Shown piece after piece: positions 16,541 through 20,828 of a stretch of 26,422 bases of DNA. The DNA comes from a virus: positions 1 through 26,422 of IMG/VR virus record IMGVR_UViG_3300032285_001719, one strand, 5' to 3'. Position 1 is the first letter of the stretch. Each line of letters starts with the position of its first letter. The position numbers were made by a program, and so were the translations under genes. The notes below the pieces were generated by a model. The model was not told the origin of the DNA, made no database searches, and saw only the letters and a list, made by a program, of their open reading frames with translations.

Positions 16541-16801
16541 TTAGACTTCCTTTAATCCATATTTTTTTATCATATCATCAACCTCTTTGGTATCTAATCC
16601 AAATTTTTCTAAGCTACGTTTCTGGTCCCACATTTGTTTTGATAATTTTTCATCATAATCGGTCCATAAATCGGCTAATTTCGGGTCAGCTTTTCTTAAA
16701 CGCTTTAACCAATCGCTTTCTGTTCCGTTGGATTTAGCTCTAAAAAAACTTCTAAAAAAATCAACAAGTCCACTTTCTTTTACTAATATTCTTTTGCGCA
16801 T
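16541..16801 (-). CDS. Small conserved protein before the tape measure
   Basis: I place the start at ATG 16801 (MRKRILVKESGLVDFF), giving 86 residues. An upstream in-frame ATG at 16837 adds only MFIFIHKHNTVI, which overlaps the ATATTTATA element at 16823-16831. The protein is charged and helical, with DFFRSFFRAKSNG, WLKRLRKADPKLADLW and DTKEVDDMIKKYGL. I recall similar short proteins in related phages, but none with known function. Position between the gp51-like ORF and the tape measure hints at tail assembly. The C-terminal helix-turn-helix look (LEKFGLDTKEVDDMIKKYG) may be coincidental. Confidence 0.65.
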   Translation of the reverse strand: MRKRILVKESGLVDFFRSFFRAKSNGTESDWLKRLRKADPKLADLWTDYDEKLSKQMWDQKRSLEKFGLDTKEVDDMIKKYGLKEV

Positions 16802-16822
16802 AATTACAGTATTATGTTTATG

Positions 16823-16831
16823 TATAAATAT
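16823..16831 (-). promoter_or_regulatory. ATATTTATA element before the 86-residue gene
   Basis: The minus strand reads TATATTTATAC between the gp51-like stop (16846) and ATG 16801, leaving 21 nt to the start. The spacing matches that of the tail tube gene (23 nt) and supports the shorter start for the downstream protein. Confidence 0.4.
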
Positions 16832-16845
16832 AAACATTAATTAAA

Positions 16846-17064
16846 TTATCTTCTTCTAATTTTTGATGTAGAGTTGCTTGTAGAACGAACTTTTTCTATT
16901 TCAGCTTTTTCATCTTCTTTTGTTTTCAAAAGCTCGCGCCAATAAAATTCTCGTAGTTTAATTGGCATGTAATATAGATCATGCCAATTAAATCCACCAT
17001 TGGCGAAGTACATCATTTGAAAAATCTTTTGATGTAAAACTACTGAATAATTAGTCGGCAGGGT
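16846..17064 (-). CDS. gp51-like / tail-chaperone C-terminal segment, probably reached by frameshift
   Basis: This segment reads TLPTNYSVVLHQKIFQMMYF, then ANGGFNWHDLYYMPIKLREF, YWRELL and a Lys/Glu-rich tail. I recognise the 'GGF...D.Y.MPI.LR.FY...L' pattern from small T4-like proteins placed after gp26, where T4 has gp51 (baseplate hub assembly). The frame is open up to 17133, but residues before 17064 are only the gp26-like gene read out of frame. A free-standing product would start at ATG 17016 (56 residues) and lose the VVLHQKIFQ helix. The helix looks like part of the fold, so I prefer a shift at the T7 run at 17065-17071. That would fuse 72 residues onto the gp26-like protein, as in G/GT tail chaperones of other long-tailed phages. 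Confidence 0.6.
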   Translation of the reverse strand, partial: TLPTNYSVVLHQKIFQMMYFANGGFNWHDLYYMPIKLREFYWRELLKTKEDEKAEIEKVRSTSNSTSKIRRR

Positions 17065-17893
17065 AAAAAAAGTCAACCCCAAATGGTATACGAAGAGCCT
17101 CCGTTTCTCCCGTAAAAGGTGATGTATACTCAAAACTTAAGTCTAAATCGGGAGTCATTTTTGATATATGTTTTCTCAAAGCTTTTGAATCTCCTGCCAA
17201 TAGTCTATTTGATACAAAATTACTAATATGCCCAAATTCACGATTACCTCCAACTTCTACAATAACTCGTCTATATCTAGCTGTGATTTCGTTTCCACTT
17301 TTTAACATTTTTTGGCTGGCCTCTATATCTTTATTGATAATAGATTCATCGCCATGCGTTAATAGTTTGAATTTTATTGGAGTTTTTGAAATTGGCAATT
17401 CAAAATCATATTCATTTTTTCTATTCAGTAATGATTCATCTATTTCTTTTATTTTAATTTTAGATAAATCAATTACAGTTTCAACAGGTTCTTTTTCTTC
17501 TGGATCATTTATGGTAACATTATATTCCGGTCCAAATGCCAATAGTCTTGATGATACTAATATTGCATTTTTATCACCAATTAATAAATCATTAACATTT
17601 ACGCCTTCTTCAACTACGATTGATTCAAGTAATTTATCGAGCTGAATACCCTTTCTGATTAAGTTTGTAGAAGTTAAAATATCTTCTTCTTTGGCTGTCA
17701 TTAACTTAATTGTAATTTCTCCCTTAGATAGTGGATTACTTTCCGGATAACATAGACCTTTTGAAGGTAGACTAATTACTTCCGTTGGGAATGGGTAAGA
17801 TTTTTGTGTTACAGGTGATTGATATTCTTCATTTGATTGAGTTGGTGCAATACCTCTAGTAACTTGCTTTTTTTCTGCTGTAGCTTGTTCCAT
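17051..17893 (-). CDS. gp26-like baseplate / tail-assembly protein (T4 baseplate family)
   Basis: This 280-residue protein contains VISLPSKGLCYPESNPLSKG (39-58), ITIKLMTAKEEDILTS (60-75) and KGIQLDKLLESIV (81-93), and ends with LRIPFGVDFFYPAD. I recognise this order from the T4 gp26-type baseplate protein family (the PSKG..YP..NPL..G signature and the closing hydrophobic 'FF.P'). In T4, gp26 is counted as a baseplate hub component. The position upstream of the tape measure, and an overlapping small ORF in another frame, are the hallmarks of tail-assembly chaperones in other phages. The first 30 residues are Gln/Thr-rich and probably disordered. No clear promoter was found in front, although a terminator precedes the gene, so an unrecognised promoter or read-through is needed. 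Confidence 0.7.
   Translation of the reverse strand: MEQATAEKKQVTRGIAPTQSNEEYQSPVTQKSYPFPTEVISLPSKGLCYPESNPLSKGEITIKLMTAKEEDILTSTNLIRKGIQLDKLLESIVVEEGVNVNDLLIGDKNAILVSSRLLAFGPEYNVTINDPEEKEPVETVIDLSKIKIKEIDESLLNRKNEYDFELPISKTPIKFKLLTHGDESIINKDIEASQKMLKSGNEITARYRRVIVEVGGNREFGHISNFVSNRLLAGDSKALRKHISKMTPDLDLSFEYTSPFTGETEALRIPFGVDFFYPAD
17063..17071 (-). other. Candidate programmed frameshift site (T7 run)
   Basis: In the gp26 frame the minus strand reads GAC TTT TTT TAC CCT GCC GAC TAA. The seven T lie at 17065-17071, four codons before the stop. The gp51-like frame is reached by a +1 (or equivalent -2) slip: GAC TTT TTT, skip T, ACC CTG CCG ACT. A standard -1 heptamer is not present. Both chaperone shift types (+1 and -2) are known from other phages. 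Confidence 0.45.
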
Positions 17894-18012: not shown

Positions 18013-18501
18013 TTAGTATTCGAGGATAGCGTAGTCTATTGAAAGCGTCAGTTCTACTGAAACTGGGTCATTACCACTCCAATCCAACTCACCGAAGTTT
18101 GCTGAGGTTATGAATGCACCTTTCAATGTCCATTGCTCTACTTTATCACCAACTGGTCCAAGTACGAATATGTTTACATCTTTCTTATAGAATGCTGCAT
18201 ATCCATCTCTACCGGTCAAAGATTCGTGCGATTGACGAACCCAGTCCATTACCATTTGTGCTCCAGATGGAACAATCGGGTCATAAAGAGTGATATTAAC
18301 ATCATCCCAAGTTGATTTTCCCTTAATTTTTCTTTTAAGGTTGATGTGGTCAAGTTCTACGGGTTCAGATGTGAATGTAGGTCTTGCTGCGGTCTTAATA
18401 ACATAAGACTCTATACCGTCTATCTCCATAATGAACCTGTTGCTAAGCTTCGGTTCAAAATTTTTATAGAACATTTTGTCAAACTCTAATATTTCTGGCA
18501 T
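18013..18501 (-). CDS. gp19: Tail tube protein (gp19-like)
   Basis: The 162 residues match the length and pattern of T4 gp19-type tube proteins. They include FYKNFEPKLSNRFIMEIDGI, SYVIKTAARPTF, SEPVELDHINLKRKIKGKS, WDDVNITLYDPI, a helix MVMDWVRQSHESLTG, and closing strands GAFITSANFGELDWSG and PVSVELTLSIDYAILEY. The protein stacks as hexameric rings to form the inner tube. It follows the sheath gene by 47 bases, the conserved order in contractile-tailed phages, and is followed by a strong terminator. An ATATTTATA element lies 23 nt upstream, which could give extra, separate expression of this abundant protein. Confidence 0.93.
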   Translation of the reverse strand: MPEILEFDKMFYKNFEPKLSNRFIMEIDGIESYVIKTAARPTFTSEPVELDHINLKRKIKGKSTWDDVNITLYDPIVPSGAQMVMDWVRQSHESLTGRDGYAAFYKKDVNIFVLGPVGDKVEQWTLKGAFITSANFGELDWSGNDPVSVELTLSIDYAILEY

Positions 18502-18548: not shown

Positions 18549-20828
18549 TTATCCACCAAAACTTGCTCCAGTCGGTAAAATGTTGAAATCAATTTGGATA
18601 AATTCCGCCGTCTTCGTTGGTTGTAAGTAGATAGAACCATTCAAGAAGTTTCTATCAATCGTATCAGGCGTATTATTTGAAGCGTCCATTACCACTTTGA
18701 AAGCGTAAAGACCTTGTCTTTGTTGGATGCTCTCCAAATAAGGATTAACAATGTTTAAGAAGCGGTTTCTAGTAGTAGAAGTATTTTGTTCAAATATCAA
18801 ATATCTTGAAGTTGAAGCGATATACTTTCTAACAGTCAATAACAATCTACGAACATTAATTCTATCCAATGCAGATGGTTTATCTTGCAAAGTCTTTTGT
18901 CCGAATACTACGATACCTTGTCCAGGGAATTGTACGATTGGATTTACTTTAGCTTCATAAAGATTATCTCTATCAGCCTGAGTCAATCTACTCAATACTG
19001 CAACTGCTCCGTTCAAACCACCACGATTCAAACCTGCTGGTGCGAACCATTCTGCTGCTACTCTATCGTTAGCTGCGAAAACTGCTGGCATCAAAACAGA
19101 AGGTGGAATAGCGATTAATTTGTTTGTATTAACATCCACAGTCTTAATCCAAGGATAGTACATAGCTGCGTAGTTAGAATCTACAGATGCTGCTTGGTCT
19201 TTTGCTTCTGCAATATCACCACTATATGAAGTACCATCAATTACATAGAAAGAATCTGCTCTATCAGTTACCAAATCAAGTGCTTTATCAACGAGTTCAG
19301 AATGATATTCTTTATTCAAACCTGGAGTTACTAACATTTGAATGTCGTACTGGTCAGAAGAAAGTGCTGAGAATTGACGAAGATAAGCTACTGAACCAGA
19401 TGATGTAAGGGTTGCACAATTCAAACCTTGTGTATTTGAACCATCATCTTTCATATCTTTACCTTTCAAAATAGGAATTACAGGAGATTGTCCGTCAAAA
19501 CCTTCTTGGAATGCGATTAAGATATTTCTTTTTGCAACATCAGTTGCTAATGATCCGATAGGAGATAATCCAGAAACCGTATCTAATGAATAAGCCACAT
19601 TAGAACCTGAACAATATACATATGAACCCGAAATTGCATCATATGTTGCAGGAATTGCGTTACAATAGAATAAATTATCAGAGTTGCCTTCTAAATCAAT
19701 ACCACCATATTGAATAGCTGATGGAGTTGTGAAAGTTGCTACTGGAACTAAAGCTGCGATAGCCGCAGATGCTGATACAGGTAATTTATAAGCATCGTGT
19801 GCGAATGGTATAGCTTGAACAGGAATGTTTTCAGATACCAAAGTATTATCTCTTTCAGCATTTACAAGTCTAACATACTTTGATTTGTTTACCCAATCAC
19901 CAGTTTCAGTTGCTCTACCTGCTGCATCAAATGTAAGATGTCTATCACCAATTACTCTATAAATGTAGTTTGGAGAAGATGGGTCAAGGTTCACATTAGA
20001 ATAAGTTTCCAATGCATTTCTTCTTCTATTGGTGTCATTGAATGCTCTTACAGTTACAGTGAAAGTACCATAATTTGTAGCTTGTGATGAACCTGCTGGC
20101 TTAATGTTTGAAATACCAATTTTAATTTTTGTATTTGCTGCATTACCTGCTCCGATTGTTTCAAAACGGAAAAGATTATATCTTAATCCAGAAATTAATT
20201 GAGATTGAATGTAAGGAGTTTTAGCTTCTTGTGCATCAAACTTAAATTCTTGGTCTGGTAAAGTTACAGCTGCTACACTTCCTGTTCCCAAAGCTGCTGC
20301 TTTAACACCAAAATACTTGTAAGAATAAGCTGCTTTGTTACCACGTGGGTCAGAACCTAAAACTGCTTCAATGTTATTAACTGCGGTTGGAACTACAGAT
20401 GCTGAAATTTGTAATCCAGATCCTGAAATTACAAAATTACCTGCCCCATCATTTCCACTAACAGAACCATTAAAGGTCTGCCCTACTGTCGTACTAAATA
20501 CGATAGCAACAGATTGTGTAGCTGATCCAGATACAACCAACATTGTTGGAGTTTTTTCAACATATCCACCTACACCGGCTACTCTACAAACTGTAGCTGC
20601 GCCAGCTTCTTTTAGATATTTTTGAACTGCGATAGGTGTGTAATAAGTGTCATCAACTGTCCCAAACATATTTTCAAATTCTACTTGGGTGTTAACGAGA
20701 GTTGGAACCAATGGTCCTTCTTTGAATGGACCTACGAATGCTGTACCTATGCTTGCCACACCTTGTTGCAAGAACGATAAGTCATTCTCCTTGGTAAATA
20801 CGCCGGGTGATACTATTTTCTCTGCCAT
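18549..20828 (-). CDS. gp18: Tail sheath protein (gp18-like)
   Basis: This 759-residue protein has a typical sheath N-terminus (IVSPGVFTKENDLSFLQQGV, AFVGPFKEGP, YTPIAVQKYLKEAGAATVCR). It also has the conserved C-terminal domain: RRLLLTVRKYIASTSRYLIF, then RNRFLNIVNPYLESIQQRQG, then NDTP-like NNTPDTIDRN and IYLQPTKTAEFIQIDFNI. The N- and C-terminal parts form the inner ring that attaches to the tube and joins neighbouring subunits. The middle (about 90-500) is a variable surface insertion, making it slightly longer than T4 gp18. Contraction drives the tube through the host envelope. Locally the gene is G+C-richer than the tape measure, as is common for highly expressed genes. Confidence 0.95.
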   Translation of the reverse strand: MAEKIVSPGVFTKENDLSFLQQGVASIGTAFVGPFKEGPLVPTLVNTQVEFENMFGTVDDTYYTPIAVQKYLKEAGAATVCRVAGVGGYVEKTPTMLVVSGSATQSVAIVFSTTVGQTFNGSVSGNDGAGNFVISGSGLQISASVVPTAVNNIEAVLGSDPRGNKAAYSYKYFGVKAAALGTGSVAAVTLPDQEFKFDAQEAKTPYIQSQLISGLRYNLFRFETIGAGNAANTKIKIGISNIKPAGSSQATNYGTFTVTVRAFNDTNRRRNALETYSNVNLDPSSPNYIYRVIGDRHLTFDAAGRATETGDWVNKSKYVRLVNAERDNTLVSENIPVQAIPFAHDAYKLPVSASAAIAALVPVATFTTPSAIQYGGIDLEGNSDNLFYCNAIPATYDAISGSYVYCSGSNVAYSLDTVSGLSPIGSLATDVAKRNILIAFQEGFDGQSPVIPILKGKDMKDDGSNTQGLNCATLTSSGSVAYLRQFSALSSDQYDIQMLVTPGLNKEYHSELVDKALDLVTDRADSFYVIDGTSYSGDIAEAKDQAASVDSNYAAMYYPWIKTVDVNTNKLIAIPPSVLMPAVFAANDRVAAEWFAPAGLNRGGLNGAVAVLSRLTQADRDNLYEAKVNPIVQFPGQGIVVFGQKTLQDKPSALDRINVRRLLLTVRKYIASTSRYLIFEQNTSTTRNRFLNIVNPYLESIQQRQGLYAFKVVMDASNNTPDTIDRNFLNGSIYLQPTKTAEFIQIDFNILPTGASFGG

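Follow-up and report, generated by a model that had tools for sequence, protein, structure and literature searches.

The window analysed here, a virus fragment of 26.4 kb (26,422 nt), carries two overlapping open reading frames between its tail tube and tape measure candidate genes, and these are probably joined by a programmed +1 ribosomal frameshift that yields the long form of a tail assembly chaperone, a reading to which we give a probability of about 0.86. Observed directly were the slip site, its conservation, the coding nature of the second open reading frame (ORF2), a clade-wide +1 phase and a short-form fold that leans towards chaperones. From these sequence data we infer the occurrence of the slip, its rate and the functions of the short and long products. 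All genes of the frameshift locus lie on the minus strand (Table 1).

Table 1. Features of the chaperone locus and its surroundings, in window coordinates.
Feature	Coordinates	Strand	Evidence or remark
Tail sheath	20828..18549	-	
Tail tube, upstream context	18013..18501	-	Pfam Phage_T4_gp19 E 1.6e-9; PHROG 4542 tail tube E 2.6e-30
Short form (TAC-N, gp26-like), 280 aa, zero frame	17051..17893	-	Pfam PF12322 T4_baseplate, 35.1 bits against a cutoff of 24.5; PHROG 150 baseplate hub, E 4e-12
Predicted slip site TTT TTT T(AC)	17065..17071	-	T7 run
Predicted C-terminal extension (TAC-C, gp51-like), +1 frame, 72 codons + stop	16846..17064	-	
98-aa ORF between chaperone and tape measure	16541..16837	-	ORF list
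Probable tape measure gene, 2430 aa	9229..16521	-	Length, position, repeated helical segments in translation

At the junction the zero frame reads GAC TTT TTT TAC CCT GCC GAC TAA, so that the short form ends in GVDFFYPAD at a TAA stop (17053..17051). As an open frame ORF2 spans 16846..17133 (minus strand), and the coordinates given for it in the initial annotation held: it occupies the +1 frame, overlaps the gp26-like gene and runs 205 nt past that gene's stop, which begins at the 12th nucleotide after the T7 run (11 nt intervening), and the predicted fusion is 348 aa long if the shift is +1 and 349 aa if it is -2. Under the proposed mechanism, most ribosomes would halt at the zero-frame TAA and release the short form (TAC-N), while a minority would slip by +1 with tRNA-Phe on the second UUU of UUU_UUU_U in the P site (17068..17066). 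The tRNA would re-pair on the overlapping UUU (17067..17065), ACC (17064..17062) would enter the A site, and the slipped ribosomes would produce the long form (TAC-NC), 348 aa in length and ending in a domain of three helices, the predicted peptide across the junction being IPFGVDFFTLPTNYSVVLHQK. The tape measure protein would then be coated by many short and few long copies, and the extra C-terminal domain of the long form may bring in subunits of the tail tube, on the model of lambda gpG and gpGT.

Relatives were gathered from IMG/VR scans and isolated phages, giving 323 loci and 274 distinct junctions for the +1 clade, whose members include phages of Flavobacterium and Microcystis, Bacillus phage SP-15, Rhodothermus phage RM378 and hundreds of aquatic contigs. 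ORF2 was in the +1 frame in 273 of these 274 junctions, 267 being called by HMM match and 6 by position; five of the latter were open for 196-256 nt, and in the sixth (L265) the contig itself ended after 79 open nt. The median ORF2 continuation was 70 codons. Among 27 close relatives, divergence at the three codon positions was.229/.170/.401 in ORF2, highest at third positions, and.226/.138/.423 in the zero-frame gene, a resemblance which indicates that ORF2 is translated in the +1 frame; this protein-level selection supports the fusion first suggested from the window alone. The single exception to the +1 phase was the 595-kb phage LR756511, with a -1 phase on GGT_TTT_TTC; this phage falls near the +1 clade and has a long zero-frame tail after the site. 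Two further loci were irregular, with ORF2 breaking 17 codons past the junction in L030 and ending in unrelated sequence in L009, and both are probably contig errors or decay.

The site was conserved in all of the first 80 relatives, including one with TTCTTTT, and every one of the 273 +1 junctions kept UUU_U, UUU_C or CUU_U at the same F-F/L codon pair, a tally for which the odd sites of L083, L084, L085, L087 and L192 were read individually. At this F-F/F-L pair, TTTTTTTGG occurred in 170 junctions, TTTTTTTAC in 61 and TTTCTTTGG in 22, followed by TTTTTTTAT, TTTCTTTAC and TTCTTTTGG (4 each), TTCTTTCGT (2) and TTCTTTTAC, TTTTTTTTC, TTCCTTTGG, TTTTTTCAC, TTTTTTAGT and TTTCTATTC (once each). 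The T7 run, whose conservation the initial annotation had proposed as a check, was present in 236 of the 273, and it or a +1-competent equivalent was kept in every +1 junction. What is invariant is a UUU or CUU codon with a following base on which its tRNA can re-pair after moving forward by one nucleotide; in LIS04 and LR756508 the earlier of the two Phe codons is the slip-competent one. None of the 273 junctions had TTC as the second Phe codon, although TTC makes up 24% of the Phe codons in the rest of these genes. Bacterial RF2 (prfB) relies on CUU_U pairing and resembles the window in having a P-site YUU followed by U and re-pairing on UUU. RF2 has a stop codon in the A site and a Shine-Dalgarno (SD)-like stimulator 3 nt upstream, whereas the zero-frame A-site codon of the window clade is TGG or TAC (263/273 junctions). 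For the third pairing, UUU_C, influenza PA-X provides an established +1 example (PMC3498833).

The initial annotation had left the direction open between +1 and -2; the frame it gave was right, and the comparison of relatives now points to +1. A -2 slip on the T7 run, as in phage Mu, would lead into the same frame and add a Phe (349 aa), and the run permits perfect -2 re-pairing in 236 of the 273 junctions. TTT is likewise kept at the first Phe codon (265/273), a bias that counts against a pure +1 shift because P-site +1 slippage alone needs none, and that could reflect an E-site effect or some -2 contribution. However, in 32 junctions (TTTCTTT, TTCTTTT and TTCCTTT) the T run is broken and pairing at -2 is mismatched, yet +1 pairing and a +1 ORF2 are retained. 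On this basis we prefer +1 ribosomal slippage over both -2 and transcript slippage and regard the -2 shift as unlikely; assignment to the Mu-like -2 class was rejected because these 32 junctions lack mismatch-free -2 re-pairing. The Listeria PSA-type +1 site (CCC_UGA) was likewise rejected for the window, where there is no zero-frame CCC and four sense codons separate the slip codon from the stop.

Slippage of RNA polymerase on the T7 run would instead supply mRNAs one U shorter or two longer, on which the ribosome would stay in frame, and would suit both the homopolymer found in most members and a flanking codon that stops the run from growing. Seven Ts are, however, short for transcript slippage, the same 32 junctions have no T run longer than 4 at the site, and the covarying 3' hairpins described below, which follow the site immediately, fit ribosomal frameshifting; we consider polymerase slippage very unlikely. 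Slighter still is the chance that ORF2 is made as a separate small protein, through re-initiation or from a TTG or ATG start. The initial annotation had argued that any usable ATG falls after the start of the VVLHQKIFQ helix and that separate initiation would lose it. No ATG does lie upstream (the first in-frame ATG, at 17016, is within the helix), but three in-frame TTG codons do, at 17133, 17082 and 17076; judged on the window alone, initiation at such a rare start is possible. An in-frame ATG also precedes the helix in 57 of the 273 relatives, and some deposited annotations have a separate short gene. Nevertheless, 96 of the 273 junctions contain no ATG, GTG or TTG before the first helix, so that separate initiation cannot be general. 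Start positions vary, only 8 junctions combine an ATG with an SD-like stretch, and a separate start leaves the conservation of the site unexplained. Neither a conserved ORF2 start nor a gap between the ORFs, the pattern named at the outset as contrary to fusion, was found in the relatives. Some sequencing methods make errors at homopolymer runs, but neither such an error nor the decay of a single gene can account for a frame break that recurs in the same phase in approximately 270 distinct contigs and also in the finished genomes of phage isolates; that explanation is refuted and has a negligible probability.

Downstream of the site, two subclades carry a hairpin 5-6 nt past the T run, one of 6 bp with a 9-nt loop (12 loci) and the other of 7 bp with a 4-nt loop (10 loci). 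Hairpin cells were paired in 72/72 and 70/70 cases, respectively, a percentage expected for loci chosen for carrying the stem; the evidence lies in the compensatory changes, which numbered 3 and 4 pairs, more than in shuffled or slid controls. No 3' hairpin was common to the whole clade, these two subclades alone having one, and neither covarying type was present in the window or its own subclade, which counts against the proposed shift there. The downstream RNA of the window folded better than its shuffles (z -3.5). A perfect 10-bp inverted repeat, AATTGGCATG/CATGCCAATT, occupies 16960-16989 (minus strand) within ORF2, about 75 nt downstream of the site. This strong stem was rejected, as 28 sequences showed no compensatory change in it and coding explains it.

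The codon preceding the slip pair provided a signature of direction. In the +1 clade it is rarely T-ending (GAC 47 to GAT 1, AGC 34 to 0, AAC 60 to 6), against shares elsewhere of 22%, 26% and 32%, respectively. Where Gly precedes the pair, it is encoded by GGG in 33 of 41 cases, GGG being just 7% of Gly codons elsewhere. By shunning a final T, the preceding codon removes the -1 heptamer T_TTT_TTT; the window conforms, with GAC at 17074..17072. Cyanophage relatives, collected in a separate IMG/VR scan, displayed the reverse arrangement, all 76 having ORF2 in the -1 frame on an invariant T_TTT_TTC, with TTC for the second Phe and a T at the end of the codon before the pair in every case (76/76). 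KVP40-like, Emmerichvirinae and PhiW-14 phages share this -1 heptamer, and in Ackermannviridae ORF2 is also -1, on related GTT-TTY sites. The gp26/gp51 pairs of the cyanophage, KVP40-like, Ackermannviridae and PhiW-14 phages overlap without a gap, as in the window, but differ in their -1 ORF2. For the window itself the -1 class (T_TTT_TTC with a -1 ORF2) was ruled out by its C_TTT_TTT_T and +1 ORF2.

The +1 group clustered in an unrooted short-form tree, with 2 label changes versus 12.4 in shuffles, although the long-branched LR756511 and RM378 were uncertain in place; this distribution of directions fits few switches. We lean, with moderate confidence, towards a history in which the chaperone frameshift of one branch of the T4 superfamily turned from -1 to +1 a single time and has stayed so, with mirror-image sites on the two sides of the switch and T4 having replaced the shift by two genes. 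If so, related viruses would have reached three solutions to one protein ratio, and each of the mirror-image sites would promote the shift of its own branch and hinder the opposite one.

For structure prediction the short form and ORF2, which contains a further in-frame TTTT, were modelled apart, from an alignment that left out proteins from named phage records. The AlphaFold2 (AF2) model of the short form reached a pLDDT of 90.7 and that of ORF2, comprising three helices, 87.8. When 761 PDB chains were aligned to the short-form model, the best matches were YqbN (3klu, Z 5.0), the HK97 tail assembly chaperone (2ob9, Z 4.8) and 5ir0 (Z 3.6), ahead of the first unrelated chain in fourth place (Z 2.1); all are weak matches (Z <8) but specific, and the modelled fold leans towards a tail assembly chaperone. 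The same search with the ORF2 domain gave a best Z of 3.8 and nothing informative.

T4 gp26 and gp51 proved to be paralogues (hhalign E 9e-17). The Pfam family T4_baseplate spans both and ends near residue 201-206, and gp51 is approximately 46 residues longer than gp26, at the place of ORF2. Aligned with gp51, a profile of the fusion stayed in register through ORF2 (E 5e-4, with a probability of only 31%), and PHROG 634, 'baseplate hub assembly catalyst', was matched by ORF2 in 3 of 55 relatives (best E 0.0016). ORF2 alone gave no significant hhalign match to T4 gp51, gp26 or gp28. Genes 26 and 51 of T4 are divergent, on opposite strands, and T4 itself therefore does not frameshift; it would make the short and long forms from two genes. 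The suggestion in the initial annotation that they are the T4-branch counterpart of G/GT thus survives in that the paralogues stand for the short and long forms, and fails in that T4 has two divergent genes and no frameshift. The abstract of the 2022 study by Vladimirov and colleagues reportedly names both genes.

The concept of a frameshifted chaperone is already known. In lambda, too, a single locus (G/GT) ahead of the tape measure gene supplies a short and a long chaperone, H following G/GT just as the tape measure candidate lies downstream of the pair in the window; the likeness is one of layout, lambda using a -1 frameshift on a different site. A 2016 review described the G/GT frameshift as widely conserved except in T4 (PMC5009743). 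The chaperone genes of T4-like phages were identified, and their short and long forms published, by Vladimirov, Gautam and Davidson (Virology 2022, 566:9-15), as cited in PMC10885494 and PMC12846349. According to those citing papers, some T4-like phages have a short gene and a long fused gene (PMC10885494) and poly-T sites serve as -1 signals in T4-like phages (PMC12846349). The window shares with these TAC-N/TAC-NC systems, as cited, the protein family, the place in the tail module and the two-product logic, but is +1 where they are -1 on poly-T or two-gene. A +1 shift has also been proposed between two chaperone ORFs at TTT-CGC in haloviruses of the HF1 group (PMC7230728), myoviruses of archaeal hosts likened to the window by arrangement and a predicted +1 at UUU, which differ in having UUU_C rather than UUU_U.

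What appears new is the +1 direction in a large branch, the site rule, the mirror-image signature and the covarying hairpins, for none of which was a prior description found in open-access text. Across the family, related phages meet a single need by three routes, and homologous genes offer natural +1 and -1 sites that are almost identical in sequence (C/G_TTT_TTT_T versus T_TTT_TTC), making the rules of frameshift direction in bacteria testable by single-base changes.

The 98-aa ORF following the chaperone pair had no Pfam match and a PHROG 8176 match at only E 0.008. In the tape measure candidate, which has a TTG start in the ORF list, segments of the type TASAYINVEQ...LTKNVE... are repeated, and its length suggests a very long contractile tail. 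The findings also correct the public annotation of isolated phages of the +1 clade, the long form being missing from the annotations of Flavobacterium phage immuto, SP-15, LIS04, GXN1, RM378 and Mel-JY01; in these six records (L081-L086) the +1 extension is annotated as a truncated separate ORF or not at all. Similarly, in loci L343-L350, drawn from cyanophage, Methylophilales, KVP40-like, Emmerichvirinae, PhiW-14 and Ackermannviridae phages, the gp51-like -1 ORF is separate or unannotated and the fusion is absent from the annotation.
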